A stretch of DNA of 49,153 nucleotides from Verrucomicrobium sp. BvORR034 (GTDB taxonomy: Bacteria > Verrucomicrobiota > Verrucomicrobiia > Verrucomicrobiales > Verrucomicrobiaceae): assembly GCF_000739635.1 (NCBI RefSeq), contig NZ_BATQ01000098.1:1-49153 (forward strand). Direction: 5' to 3'. The position numbers and the translations under genes were made by a program. The notes under the pieces are model-generated. The model had not been told where the DNA came from and did not search any database. It was given only the letters and a program-made list of their open reading frames with translations. Below are positions 21,013-49,153 of the stretch, in pieces. Each line of letters opens with the position of its first letter. Position 1 is the first letter of the stretch.

Positions 21013-21858
21013 GTGGCCGGATTCTTTAAAAAACTCATCCAGCGCTTCACCAAGGCGGACATTGACTGGGATGACCTTGAGGCACAGCTCATCGCCGGAG
21101 ATCTCGGGGCCAAGCTGTCCGTGCAGATTGTGGACGACCTGAAAGAGCAGGCCCGCAAGCTTCATGACCAGGACATTGTGGAGGTGACCAAGAAGCACAT
21201 CCGCAAGATCCTGCCAGCGACCGTCGCCCCGGTGAAACCCTTTGGCGACAAGCCCAAGGTCCTGCTCATCGTCGGCGTGAACGGCACGGGCAAGACCACC
21301 TCCACGGCCAAGCTCGCCAACCTGCTGAAGAAGCAGGGGCACAGCCTCGTGCTGGCAGCTGCCGACACCTTCCGCGCCGCCGCGGTGGAGCAGCTCGAAG
21401 TCTGGGCCAAGCGCGTGGATGTTCCCATCATCAAGGGACCTCCGAACGGGGATCCCAGCGCCGTGTGTTTTGACGCCTACAGCTCCGCCATCGCACGCAA
21501 GGCGGACTTCCTCATCTGCGATACCGCCGGACGTCTGCACACCCGGCACAACCTCATGGAGGAGCTGCGCAAGGTGCAACGCACCCTGGGCAAGAAAGAC
21601 CCAACCGCGCCTCATGAAGTGCTGCTCGTGGTCGATGCCACCACAGGAGGAAACGCCCTCCAGCAGGCCAAGGAGTTCAACAAGACCGTCCCGCTCACCG
21701 GAGTAATTGTCACCAAGCTCGACGGCAGCGGGAAGGGCGGCGTGCTCGTCGCCATCCAGCAGGAGCTGGGCATTCCGGCCCGATTCGTCGGCACGGGCGA
21801 GCACATGGATGACTTCGAGCCCTTTGTGCCCGAGACTTTCCTGGACCAGATGCTCTAA
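21013..21858 (+). CDS. ftsY: Signal recognition particle receptor FtsY
   Basis: A 281-residue NG-domain GTPase that docks SRP-ribosome complexes at the inner membrane. The N domain begins FFKKLIQRFTKADIDWDDLE; the G domain has the P-loop GVNGTGKTTSTAKLA, ADTFRAAAVEQLEVWAKR, CDTAGRLHT and TKLDGSGKGG. It starts with GTG at 21013 and lacks the long acidic A domain of Proteobacterial FtsY, so it is of the short type. The C-terminal ERFVGTGE-like motif appears here as RFVGTGEHMDDFEPFVPE. Confidence 0.96.
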   Translation: MAGFFKKLIQRFTKADIDWDDLEAQLIAGDLGAKLSVQIVDDLKEQARKLHDQDIVEVTKKHIRKILPATVAPVKPFGDKPKVLLIVGVNGTGKTTSTAKLANLLKKQGHSLVLAAADTFRAAAVEQLEVWAKRVDVPIIKGPPNGDPSAVCFDAYSSAIARKADFLICDTAGRLHTRHNLMEELRKVQRTLGKKDPTAPHEVLLVVDATTGGNALQQAKEFNKTVPLTGVIVTKLDGSGKGGVLVAIQQELGIPARFVGTGEHMDDFEPFVPETFLDQML

Positions 21859-21973: not shown

Positions 21974-23107
21974 ATGACTTTCATGATTGCCGAACCTCTT
22001 CCCACTGAGCACACCGATTCGATCAACGCGAAGATTCTCGAGGTCTCTGAGGACCAGATCAAAGGCTTCCACCGGCATCCCTTCCACTTTGTGGCCGAGC
22101 GTTCCGGGCTCCCCCTGGAGACCGTGCTTGAGCGCATTCAGGCCATGCTCCGTGCTGGTGTGATCCGCCGCGTGCGCCAGACCCTGCTGGCCAACAAGCT
22201 GGCGGACGGCGGCCTGGTGGCCTGGAAGATTCCCGGCGACAAGATCGATGCCGCTTTCGACTTCATGGTGAAGGAAGACCCCTTCAGCGGTCACGTGGTG
22301 TTGCGCTCCACCGACCGCGAAGTGAGTGGCTCCGACTTCAAACTCTGGACGACTATCAAAGTGCCGCAAGGCAGGGAGATCTCAGAGCATGCTGATGCGC
22401 TGATGCGTCTGCTGGGCGCGGAGGAGTACATCATCATGCAGCCCAAGGGAATCTTCGCCCTGGGAGTGGGCCACGTGCGTCGCAAGACGATGGAGATCGG
22501 CGACAAGTCCGATGAGCCCGCGGAAATGATCACCCCGGACATCGTGGATCTGGACAAAGAGGAATGGGATGTCCTCGTGGCCATGAAGCGCGACCTGACA
22601 CCTGAGGAGATCGTCCCAGAGCCCTGGGTGGCTCGTGCGGCAGAGGCGGGCGTGAGCGTGGACCGCTTTTGCGAAGTGGCAGAGGGCTTTGACCGCAAGG
22701 GCATTCTCGGCCGGTTCTCCACCTTCCTGGAACATGTGAAGCCTTCTCAAACCGGCGTGCGCGTGACGAAGTTTAACGCGCTCTTCCACTGGCGTGTGCC
22801 AGAGGGCATGCAGCAGCGTGCCGGCAGCGAGGTGGGGCGTCACCACATCATGACGCATGCCTACTGGCGTGAAGGCGGACCCCGTTTCGCCAATGCCAAC
22901 ATCATGGGCGTGGTTCACGGCACGGACAAAGCGCGTGTGCTGGAGCACAAGGCCGCCATCGACCGCCATCTGGAGAGCATCGGTATTCCCGTGCTGTACA
23001 CGAACGTCTTCTGGGGCGGTCGCAGTGAAATTAAGCCCTCCGAGATCTCACCAAAGGTGTACGCCGAGTGGCACGACAAATACCGCGGTCAGTCAAACAT
23101 CATCTGA
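21974..23107 (+). CDS. Tandem AhbA/AhbB-like (siroheme decarboxylase/Lrp-AsnC type) protein
   Basis: A 377-residue protein with two copies of an HTH plus AsnC-like module. Half one: HTH about 20-75 (HPFHFVAERSGLPLETVLER), then VAWKIPGDKIDAAFDFM, GHVVLRS and KLWTTIKVPQG (to about 170). Half two: HTH about 190-250, then NALFHWRVPEG, MTHAYWRE, ANIMGVVHGTD and a C-terminal LYTNVFWGGRSEIKPS. The pattern V-P-E, T-H-x-Y, N-x-x-x-M-x-H-G is that of siroheme decarboxylase subunits AhbA/AhbB, which normally form a dimer of two separate polypeptides. Either a fused decarboxylase or a regulator derived from it. Start: ATG 21974, with ATG 21983 possible. A strong terminator follows. Confidence 0.72.
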   Translation: MTFMIAEPLPTEHTDSINAKILEVSEDQIKGFHRHPFHFVAERSGLPLETVLERIQAMLRAGVIRRVRQTLLANKLADGGLVAWKIPGDKIDAAFDFMVKEDPFSGHVVLRSTDREVSGSDFKLWTTIKVPQGREISEHADALMRLLGAEEYIIMQPKGIFALGVGHVRRKTMEIGDKSDEPAEMITPDIVDLDKEEWDVLVAMKRDLTPEEIVPEPWVARAAEAGVSVDRFCEVAEGFDRKGILGRFSTFLEHVKPSQTGVRVTKFNALFHWRVPEGMQQRAGSEVGRHHIMTHAYWREGGPRFANANIMGVVHGTDKARVLEHKAAIDRHLESIGIPVLYTNVFWGGRSEIKPSEISPKVYAEWHDKYRGQSNII

Positions 23108-46576: not shown

Positions 46577-49153
46577 ATGAAGTTCCTCCCACCCATATTC
46601 CTGCTCCTGCTGGTCACCGCCACCGCGCAAGGCGAGGGAAAGGTCAAGTTCAACCGGGACATCCGTCCCATCATGTCGGACACGTGTTTTCACTGTCATG
46701 GTCCGGACAAAAGTTCCCGCAAAGGAGGCCTGCGACTCGACATTCGGGAAGAGGCGCTCAAGCCGGGCAAGAGCGGTGCCATTCCCATTGTGCCCGGGGA
46801 TGCGAACGAGAGCGAAATCATCAAGCGGATCTTCACCAGTGATCATGAGGACCTCATGCCGCCGGAGGAGGCTCACAAAGAGCTGACCCCGGAGCAAAAA
46901 GAGATCTTCAAGCAATGGGTGGCCGAGGGGGCAGTTTACGAAGCGCACTGGGCCTACACCCCGCTGGTGCGGCCTCCCGTTCCCGGGGCAAACGCCCAGC
47001 TTACCGGGGAGAAGGCCGTTGATGCCTTCATTCAGGCCGGGCTGTCCGCCAAGAACATCCAACCCTCTGCCGGGGCGGACCGGCGCACGTTGTTGCGAAG
47101 GTTGAGTCTGGACCTGACAGGCCTGCCACCGACACCGGAGGAGCTGGAGGCCTTCGTCAAAGATGCCGCCCCCGATGCCTACGCCCAGCAGGTGGAACGC
47201 CTGCTCAAGTCACCTCACTATGGCGAGCGCATGGCGGTCTGGTGGCTGGATGTGGCCAGATTCACCGACACCGTAGGTTATCACGGCGACCAGAATCAAC
47301 GGATTTTCCCGTATCGCGATTATGTCATCGACGCGTTCAACCAGAACAAGCGCTTTGACCAGTTCACCATCGAGCAGTTGGCAGGAGACCTGTTGCCGAA
47401 TCCCACGAAGGAGCAACTGGTGGCAACCGGCTTCAACCGGTTGAACATGGTGACCCGTGAAGGTGGTGCCCAGCCCAAGGAATACCTGAGCAAGTACGGC
47501 GCAGAACGCGTGCGAACGGTCGGCGGTGCCTGGATGGGGGCCACGCTGGGCTGCAGCGAGTGCCATGACCACAAGTTCGATCCCTTCACTGCAAAGGACT
47601 TCTACGCCATGCAGGCGTTCTTTGCGGATGTGAAGCAGTGGGGAGTCTATTCGGACTATGGTTATTCCCCCAATCCCGAGCTCAAAGGCTGGAACAATGA
47701 GTATCCTTTTCCGCCCGAGATCGAGGTCACGAGCCCTTACCTGAAGCAGCGTAGCGAATCGCTGAGAAAGCGCATGCTGGCGCTCGCAGCCGGGGAGCTG
47801 AAACAGCCAGCAGTCCAGCAGGCATTTCGGGCCTGGCGGACGGAGGCGGAAAAGTTCCTGAACGAACACGAGGACGGCTGGCTCACGCTCCCGCCCACCG
47901 TGAGTGTGTCTGCCGCGCCTGTGGGCAAGAAGGCGGCGACTCCTCCCACTGAGGCGAAAAAGGAGGTGCCAGCCCCGCTGGTGGGGGCGGAGCAATGGAT
48001 CACTGCCAGCTCAAAGGCGGCAGACAACTCCCGGATTGAGTTGAGTCCAGGTGCCATGAGCGTGGCCGCGGTGCGGATTCAGCTGCGTCCCCATGGGACA
48101 GGAGGTTCCATCTTGCGCAGCGGGGGCGAGGGGAGCACGATGGTCAAGGTGTCCGTGGCCGTAAAGAGGCAGGGTGCGGAGAAGGAGCAGGGCCTGGCGG
48201 TTGCCTATGCGGACGCCGATTTCCAAGATCCCCGCTACAGCAGTACCGTGCAGGTCTTGAACCTCAAGGACGGCTGGAAGACGGCCTCCTCCCGATGGAA
48301 CGCCGTCCAGCAGTCCGTGTGGCAGCTTGAAAGACCCGTGTCGCTCAAGGAAGGGGACAGGCTGGTGGTGAAGCTGGATGCCAACAGTGCAGCCAGCTAC
48401 CGGGTGCAGGTTTCGCCCTTCGCCCCTGTGAAACCCAATGCTCCTGAAGCGTTGGCATCAATGAGGGACGACCTTGTTTCACCTGATGTCCCGTCCCGGC
48501 TGGCGGAGACCTTTTTGCGTTCTGCCTCGATGGAGCCGGGTGGCGCGACGGCAGAGTATCGCCAGTTGTTCAGCCAGTGGCTGGAGTGCCGGGAAGGCAA
48601 GACGTGGACGATGGTCACGCAAGCCATGCCACCCTTGACGGTGAAAGTGCTGCCACGCGGGAACTGGATGGATGAGACGGGGGAGGTGACCCCGCCGGCG
48701 GTGCCGGAGTTTCTGCCTGCCTCCTTCCGGGCGGGCGCAGAGCAACCCCGCGCAACCCGGCTTGATCTGGCCAAGTGGCTCTGTTCACAGGACAATCCGC
48801 TCACGCCTAGGGCCTTTGTGAACCGCCTCTGGAAGCAGTTCTTTGGCAATGGTCTCTCGATCGTCGTGGATGACCTGGGCGCCCAAGGGGAGCCTCCCAG
48901 CCATCCTGAACTGTTGGATTGGCTCGCCTCAGAGTTCCGCGACAGCGGTTGGGACGTGAAACACCTCATCCGCCTGATGGTGCTTTCCCACACCTACCGC
49001 CAGAGCTCCAGCCTGCGACCAGAGTTGAAGGACGTTGATCCCAACAACCGCTTGCTGGCTTCGCAGAATCCCCGCCGCCTAGATGCGGAGTTCGTTCGGG
49101 ACAACGCTCTCTTTATTGCGGGTCGTCTCAATCTCGATTTGGGCGGGCCGAGC
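46577..49153 (+). CDS. PSCyt1-DUF1549-DUF1553 cytochrome-domain protein (partial, runs off the window)
   Basis: 859 residues are visible and the frame is open to the last base. A signal (MKFLPPIFLLLLVTATAQG) precedes the PSCyt1 domain with the heme motif CFHCHGPD. Then comes DUF1549 (RRLSLDLTGLPPTPEELEAF, WWLDVARFTDTVGYHGDQNQ, CSECHDHKFDPF, a second CxxCH). A long insert, about 47900-48400, carries a jelly-roll-like region. DUF1553 begins near WLCSQDNPLTPRAFVNRLWK and continues through LDWLASEFRDSGWDVKHLIR to RLDAEFVRDNALFIAGRLNL. Common in Planctomycetes and Verrucomicrobia, often beside DUF1501, implicated in polysaccharide use. The ATG at 46577 was found by reading the sequence. Confidence 0.92.
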   Translation, partial: MKFLPPIFLLLLVTATAQGEGKVKFNRDIRPIMSDTCFHCHGPDKSSRKGGLRLDIREEALKPGKSGAIPIVPGDANESEIIKRIFTSDHEDLMPPEEAHKELTPEQKEIFKQWVAEGAVYEAHWAYTPLVRPPVPGANAQLTGEKAVDAFIQAGLSAKNIQPSAGADRRTLLRRLSLDLTGLPPTPEELEAFVKDAAPDAYAQQVERLLKSPHYGERMAVWWLDVARFTDTVGYHGDQNQRIFPYRDYVIDAFNQNKRFDQFTIEQLAGDLLPNPTKEQLVATGFNRLNMVTREGGAQPKEYLSKYGAERVRTVGGAWMGATLGCSECHDHKFDPFTAKDFYAMQAFFADVKQWGVYSDYGYSPNPELKGWNNEYPFPPEIEVTSPYLKQRSESLRKRMLALAAGELKQPAVQQAFRAWRTEAEKFLNEHEDGWLTLPPTVSVSAAPVGKKAATPPTEAKKEVPAPLVGAEQWITASSKAADNSRIELSPGAMSVAAVRIQLRPHGTGGSILRSGGEGSTMVKVSVAVKRQGAEKEQGLAVAYADADFQDPRYSSTVQVLNLKDGWKTASSRWNAVQQSVWQLERPVSLKEGDRLVVKLDANSAASYRVQVSPFAPVKPNAPEALASMRDDLVSPDVPSRLAETFLRSASMEPGGATAEYRQLFSQWLECREGKTWTMVTQAMPPLTVKVLPRGNWMDETGEVTPPAVPEFLPASFRAGAEQPRATRLDLAKWLCSQDNPLTPRAFVNRLWKQFFGNGLSIVVDDLGAQGEPPSHPELLDWLASEFRDSGWDVKHLIRLMVLSHTYRQSSSLRPELKDVDPNNRLLASQNPRRLDAEFVRDNALFIAGRLNLDLGGPS

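Follow-up and report, generated by a model that had tools for sequence, protein, structure and literature searches.

The stretch of DNA analyzed here (the window) comprises 49,153 nucleotides of contig NZ_BATQ01000098.1 from Verrucomicrobium sp. BvORR034. On its forward strand, positions 21974-23107 hold an open reading frame for 377 amino acids without an internal stop, and an upstream in-frame TTG at 21707 would give a 466-aa version of the same frame. The product is a single-chain siroheme-decarboxylase-like protein according to Pfam, PDB sequence matches, Foldseek, and VIA-align. Directly 5′ of the gene lies ftsY, identified by PF00448, and no heme-synthesis gene was recognized in the window, most of whose genes were judged from their first residues alone. 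On these points, and in describing an intact and real tandem fusion on one chain, the preliminary description was borne out. PADLOC returned no match. Farther along, 46577-49153 encodes a PSCyt1-PSCyt2-PSD1 protein with a Planctomycete cytochrome C domain that reaches the window's end.

Both halves of the 377-aa protein contain an AsnC-like ligand domain recognized by PF17805 (cut-off 27 bits), encoded on the forward strand at 22208-22441 in the N-half (39.1 bits) and at 22772-23002 in the C-half (34.7 bits). A helix-turn-helix (HTH) region precedes the first of these at 22019-22186 (+; residues 16-71), a winged-helix region marked by the NirDL-like HTH family PF22451 (34.4 bits, residues 34-65) and by helices and a strand of a structure model. 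PF22451 passes in the N-half only; the C-half HTH region, at 22556-22729 (+; residues 195-252), is suggested by model helices at 195-205, 218-225, and 229-241 and by 4czd_B, which aligns to residues 191-360. The pattern of HTH plus AsnC-like domain first proposed for both halves thus holds for the ligand domains throughout and, as a Pfam match, for the HTH of the N-half. The NCBIfam subunit models stay below their equivalog cut-offs, with 87 bits for AhbB on the C-half (cut-off 125) and 50.4 bits for AhbA on the N-half (cut-off 140).

The structure model, built from 55 related sequences, has a mean pLDDT of 88.0 and a pTM of 0.81, and its two AsnC-like ligand domains are predicted to form one barrel, as befits a siroheme decarboxylase. 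The nearest PDB entry by sequence is the NirDL of Hydrogenobacter thermophilus, which matches across both halves, while each 4czd chain matches across one half. Foldseek placed 4ch7 and 4czc at the top, followed by four 4czd chains, and VIA-align gave the NirDL structures Z scores of 25.8 (4ch7; 303 residues, rmsd 3.7) and 25.5, the next row being an unrelated structure at 10.1. Lrp/AsnC regulators reached Z 8-9 over one half.

The residues of the predicted pocket differ between the halves. The C-half motif H295-A-Y297-W-R299 (22856-22870, +) corresponds to the HxYxR of AhbB (His98, Tyr100, Arg102) and marks an AhbB-type half, and the N-half motif H107-V-V-L-R111 (22292-22306, +) has a His and an Arg that align with the iron-binding His115 and with Arg119 of AhbA, with Val in place of Tyr. 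The HXYXR motif has been found in both AhbA and AhbB; the three AhbB residues are proposed to be catalytic, with the Arg102 to Ala variant inactive, and AhbA His115 binds iron while Arg119 could touch a propionate (PMC4145669). HxYxR is not present in both halves here, and because the N-half lacks the Tyr, the protein is classed as a siroheme-decarboxylase variant. A V-P-x-x pattern had also been ascribed to both halves, which fails for the first, where the sequence reads I-P (KIPGDK) instead of V-P.

Judged by its sequence, the protein is a member of a separate clade that falls below the NCBIfam cut-offs and occurs in Verrucomicrobia and in metagenome-assembled genomes (MAGs) labeled as other phyla. 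Of 57 genomes searched at genus, family, and order level, with the window's own (G000) included, 51 gave matches, 50 of them with at least 241 bits, and all listed matches were free of stops, which disposes of the suspicion that two genes had been joined by a sequencing error. The weak 51st match, at 44.8 bits, is the classical NirDL of genome G041. In a collection of named records, 153 stretches encode relatives, and the best 80 of the 153 are 56-95% identical; their record names include Verrucomicrobia, Planctomycetes, Armatimonadetes, Abditibacteria, Dehalococcoidia, and others, although the MAG names are given as deposited and are unreliable, some looking wrong. Fifty of these 80 loci, picked for carrying the gene, were carried on as named carriers; they overlap with the relatives by at least one genome, G057 very probably being G002, with ChdC in the same place.

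H107, V109, R111, H295, Y297, and R299 are unchanged in all 83 clade members of an alignment from which L033, L052, and L086 (short or lacking a gene call) and G036 were left out and had their motifs examined separately. Read straight from the DNA, the same six residues recur in 80 of 80 named loci, each reading HxVxR in its first half and HxYxR in its second, and in 20 of 20 loci of relatives, which confirms the two His sites, His107 and His295, that had been singled out at the start. In G036, which at 38% identity is the most distant member, V109 is replaced by Ala, giving HxAxR. The three classical NirDLs that were compared (G041, G046, and G103) carry HxYxR in both halves, and a tree of 39 sequences splits them from the clade with 100/100 support on long branches. 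These classical single-chain genes lie in L271, L275, and L286 (8284-9342). The G041 gene has cytochrome d1-domain and NirJ-like genes on its contig; the G103 gene stands beside AhbC/NirJ1-like and AhbD-like genes.

Fusion itself is not new; what is new is the clade and its setting. The known enzymes had at first been described as two separate polypeptides, which is incorrect, as both NirDL (4CZC) and archaeal AhbAB outside the methanogens consist of a single chain. The available text of PMC4835899 describes Hydrogenobacter NirDL as one chain of two fused domains, and, methanogens apart, every heme-synthesizing archaeon has AhbA fused to AhbB (PMC3942049). NirDL (4CH7, 4CZC) resembles the 377-aa protein in having two HTH plus AsnC-like halves on one chain and is its best counterpart by sequence and fold; in contrast, identity is only ∼20%, and in the clade the N-half motif is without its Tyr and the gene is found with heme b genes and ChdC. 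The fused archaeal AhbAB is alike in being a single gene, a likeness drawn from its description. AhbA/AhbB of Desulfovibrio and Methanosarcina share the His/Tyr/Arg of the B-type half and would share the proposed conversion of siroheme to didecarboxysiroheme, but in Desulfovibrio and the methanogens there are two subunits, HxYxR occurs in both, and AhbC and AhbD follow.

The preliminary description had also proposed a check of the genome for other heme genes, and this gave the most informative result, namely CobA-HemD and ChdC with no match for HemE, HemH, AhbC, or AhbD. Profile searches recovered CobA-HemD, with CobA (G000:C40, 291.7 bits) accounting for precorrin-2 as a CobA/SUMT enzyme, and ChdC at 259.5 bits, above the NCBIfam equivalog cut-off of 253. 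Ferrochelatase HemH (PF00762) had no match at E≤0.001, HemE (PF01208) and the AhbD model had none at 1e-20, and the best AhbC score was 56.6 bits against a cut-off of 650. Of the marks of the coproporphyrin-dependent pathway, the genome therefore has ChdC and lacks recognizable HemE and coproporphyrin ferrochelatase; the AhbC and AhbD that mark the siroheme-dependent (Ahb) pathway were likewise not found. The presence of cytochrome bd genes indicates that the organism uses heme. Its hemA-hemC-cobA/hemD genes lie behind a cytochrome c assembly-like gene on another contig than the 377-aa gene, which sits beside ftsY, apart from heme genes. A 77-aa [4Fe-4S]-type ferredoxin (PF13370; L162:9370-9600) adjoins ChdC here; of 15 ChdC regions from relatives, 10 have it as well, and 12 have a ThiG-like gene beside ChdC.

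Heme genes were surveyed in 54 of the relatives, the own genome included. CobA was found in 53 (52 over the cut-off) and ChdC (PF06778) in 46, some partial, the own genome being among both. Ferrochelatase occurred in three at E≤0.001, two of them over the cut-off (G041 complete, G038 partial), and HemE in four at 1e-20. AhbC-like proteins of at least 270 bits were present in 24 and matches to the AhbD model at 1e-20 in 26, none of either over the cut-off. The clade gene was present in 47, 42 of which also have ChdC. In the combined gene table, for which we set limits of 270 and 290 bits ourselves, 24 of the 54 have the clade gene and ChdC without HemH, HemE, or AhbC (AhbC-like fragments occur in one of them, G031, and the AhbD model matches G030 and G032), and 17 have the clade gene, ChdC, and AhbC. 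Four members of one family (G036, G043, G047, and G049) combine the clade gene with AhbC-like and AhbD-like genes and have no ChdC, and G041 has HemE and HemH and neither the clade gene nor ChdC.

Among the named carriers, ChdC was present in 45 of 50 and ferrochelatase in two, G071 and G072, which have HemH and ChdC alongside the clade protein. AhbC matches at 1e-20 occurred in 18, two of them at only 111-125 bits; among the 32 without one, 29 have ChdC and none has HemH. In a control set of 14 well-known genomes, PF17805 occurred in four and ferrochelatase in eight, with no overlap. Two genomes, Sulfolobus acidocaldarius and Deinobacterium chartae, resemble the own genome in having PF17805 and ChdC and no match for HemH, HemE, or AhbC at 1e-20. 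The AhbD model, also at 1e-20, does pick up Sulfolobus, along with several genomes that lack the pathway.

Exceptions were also found. The clade protein was unmatched in G009, G016, G022, and G039 (75-87% complete), the first three of which have ChdC, and in G052 (99% complete), which has AhbC- and AhbD-like genes. G024, also 99% complete, has ChdC and CobA with no match for the clade protein, HemH, HemE, or AhbC, and G020 and the named carriers G058, G083, and G106 have the clade protein but neither ChdC nor AhbC. Some of these exceptions may be assembly gaps.

The radical SAM proteins behind the Ahb counts were scanned further. Seven AhbC-like proteins scored best with NirJ1 in five cases, with AhbC in one, and with NirJ in one (G041); the accessible part of PMC10991733 lists NirJ1 as a name for AhbC. 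Since no AhbC match came up to the curated cut-off and most of the scanned proteins fit another model better, the AhbC counts given here are upper bounds. Among four AhbD-like proteins, three scored better with TIGR04053 and one (G103) with AhbD. Genes for radical SAM proteins of TIGR04053, a family without an assigned function, lie at L108:1645-2514, L115:1432-2511, and L113:1645-2535, the first two immediately preceding an AhbC/NirJ1-like gene. Such a protein could stand in for AhbD in G043, the source of L108, which lacks ChdC.

Gene neighborhoods place some homologs among heme genes, with neighbors named by reading unless a profile match is stated. In L060, from a Dehalococcoidia MAG, one strand encodes an aldo/keto reductase, ChdC, HemA, the clade protein, CobA/HemD, a SirC-type dehydrogenase, CbiX, HemL, and HemC, all but the last two of the neighbors being profile-checked (HemA below cut-off). 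L087 has a reductase, ChdC, the clade protein, a small ORF, SirC, HemA, CobA/HemD, and a HemB-like start, as named by reading. Neither genome matches AhbC at 1e-20, that of L087 being only 1.2 Mb. In G027 and G032, the clade gene is near a CbiX-DR2241-Fer4_23 protein, a CbiX-type chelatase, and lies 4.6-5.6 kb from CobA-HemD. This three-domain protein (L282:6073-7590 and L283:5888-7396) has 2jh3 as its closest PDB chain.

Sequence, model, and genome content together give good support to the reading as a fused siroheme decarboxylase, and the 377-aa protein is very probably a one-chain enzyme of this kind in a hybrid heme b route that ends at ChdC. Its two halves would close one barrel round siroheme, in which His107 and Arg111 of the N-half would hold the iron and a propionate, and His295, Tyr297, and Arg299 of the C-half would drive the loss of the C12 and C18 acetate carboxyls to give didecarboxysiroheme. 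The proposed route would run from uroporphyrinogen III through precorrin-2, made by CobA, to siroheme and, by the 377-aa enzyme, to didecarboxysiroheme, which would be deacetylated to coproheme, the substrate from which ChdC would make heme b. For the deacetylation, an AhbC-like protein may serve in some relatives, and no enzyme is assigned to it in the window's organism. Against this reading stand G024, with ChdC and CobA and no match to the clade protein; G071 and G072, which combine the clade protein with HemH; the NCBIfam subunit scores below cut-off; the N-half without Tyr; and the position of the own gene away from heme genes.

That last point, a lone gene beside ftsY, would also suit a transcription regulator that senses heme or siroheme, having retained the pocket and the architecture of Lrp/AsnC proteins but not catalysis, as would the presence of two regions resembling an HTH, of which one matches Pfam, and the likeness of the fold to Lrp/AsnC regulators over one half. 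Such a role is nonetheless very improbable, given that the catalytic HxYxR is conserved, the fold is far nearer NirDL than the regulators, 43 of the 45 ChdC-positive named carriers have no HemH, and homologs lie within a run of heme genes in L060 and L087; no positive support for regulation was found. Even less credible is a NirDL-type enzyme serving heme d1 of cytochrome cd1 and standing outside heme b synthesis. NirDL is the closest solved relative, yields the same product, and belongs to heme d1 synthesis (PMC7242693). Yet the classical NirDLs, two of them from the same order (G041 and G046) along with that of G103, form the separate branch with HxYxR in both halves, the G041 gene keeps company with cytochrome d1-domain and NirJ genes in a genome that has HemE and HemH, and the L060 run around the clade protein holds heme b genes and ChdC.

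Under the preferred reading of a decarboxylase in a route ending at ChdC, the failure to find AhbC and AhbD in the own genome leaves a gap. AhbC is the known enzyme between didecarboxysiroheme and coproheme, and at the thresholds set the own genome gave no match for it, nor did 23 other relatives with this set of genes or 29 named carriers that have ChdC. Either AhbC is present and unrecognized or another enzyme does the step. There is roughly an even chance that many ChdC-bearing bacteria pass from siroheme through a single-chain decarboxylase with one complete active site and an undiscovered, non-AhbC deacetylase, perhaps using oxygen or peroxide, to coproheme and then ChdC, with the AhbC- and AhbD-like proteins as anaerobic counterparts in relatives. 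It is possible, though rather less likely, that AhbC is too diverged or lost from drafts, in which case the organisms would use the usual siroheme pathway with ChdC as its last step, like Haloferax. The AhbC-like matches in relatives fit such a hidden AhbC, as does a radical SAM protein of the own genome, G000:C44, which scores ∼50-65 bits to AhbC, has NirJ1, NirJ2, and AhbC among its best NCBIfam matches, and has homologs 2-3 kb from cobA-hemD in G010 and G021. However, AhbC went unmatched alongside the clade gene and ChdC in 24 of the 54 relatives and 29 of the 50 named carriers, one of these genomes being G003, a single contig of 100% completeness. G000:C44 itself matches the radical SAM core only, its family by score also occurs in AhbC-positive genomes and has no match in G053, and this type of protein is near GcvH-like and ferredoxin-like genes in G000 and G050; it may be a diverged AhbC, but this identity is not supported. 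Clusters of GcvH-like, radical SAM/SPASM, and ferredoxin-like proteins lie at L258:4836-11700, where cytochrome bd genes fall within the cluster on the opposite strand, and at L272:8116-12101, which adds a CobW-type GTPase.

Two other genes were considered for the missing deacetylase and rejected. A flavin reductase-like gene lies directly upstream in eight loci labeled Planctomycetota (PF01613 checked for L084) and was dismissed because all eight genomes have AhbC-like matches, one of them split. An aldo/keto reductase lies upstream of ChdC in two Chloroflexota contigs and one Armatimonadota contig (L060:2992-4011, L087:4102-5127, and L218:6325-7341; 45-56% mutual identity). A search covering 80 of 107 genomes at 1e-50 found this subfamily in 24 of 43 named carriers, some of them AhbC-positive, and in none of 37 relatives, so it was rejected for the window's lineage.

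A siroheme route ending with ChdC has a precedent in Haloferax volcanii, for which the accessible portions of PMC5746218 and PMC8305020 describe a siroheme branch that finishes with a ChdC-type enzyme, with PitA/ChdC used for aerobic and AhbD for anaerobic growth. Unlike the present case, Haloferax is an archaeon with AhbC, and its AhbA and AhbB are two two-domain proteins; here the carriers are bacteria, the decarboxylase is a single chain, and AhbC was not found in many genomes. The siroheme route is placed in archaea and sulfate reducers in the available text of PMC7242693 and PMC10991733 and is called archaea-specific in that of PMC8529089, and the listings of an open-licence library turned up no paper on it in Verrucomicrobia or Planctomycetes.

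For AhbA/AhbB, two possibilities were left undecided, a flip of the substrate within a single site and its transfer to a second, pseudo-symmetrical one (PMC4145669), and the retention of the proposed catalytic Tyr in one half only favors a one-site mechanism over two sites. If the proposed route is real, one enzyme of heme synthesis would still have to be found, and the siroheme route, joined to ChdC, would be the norm in the order to which the window's organism belongs and would also operate in carriers of other phyla.
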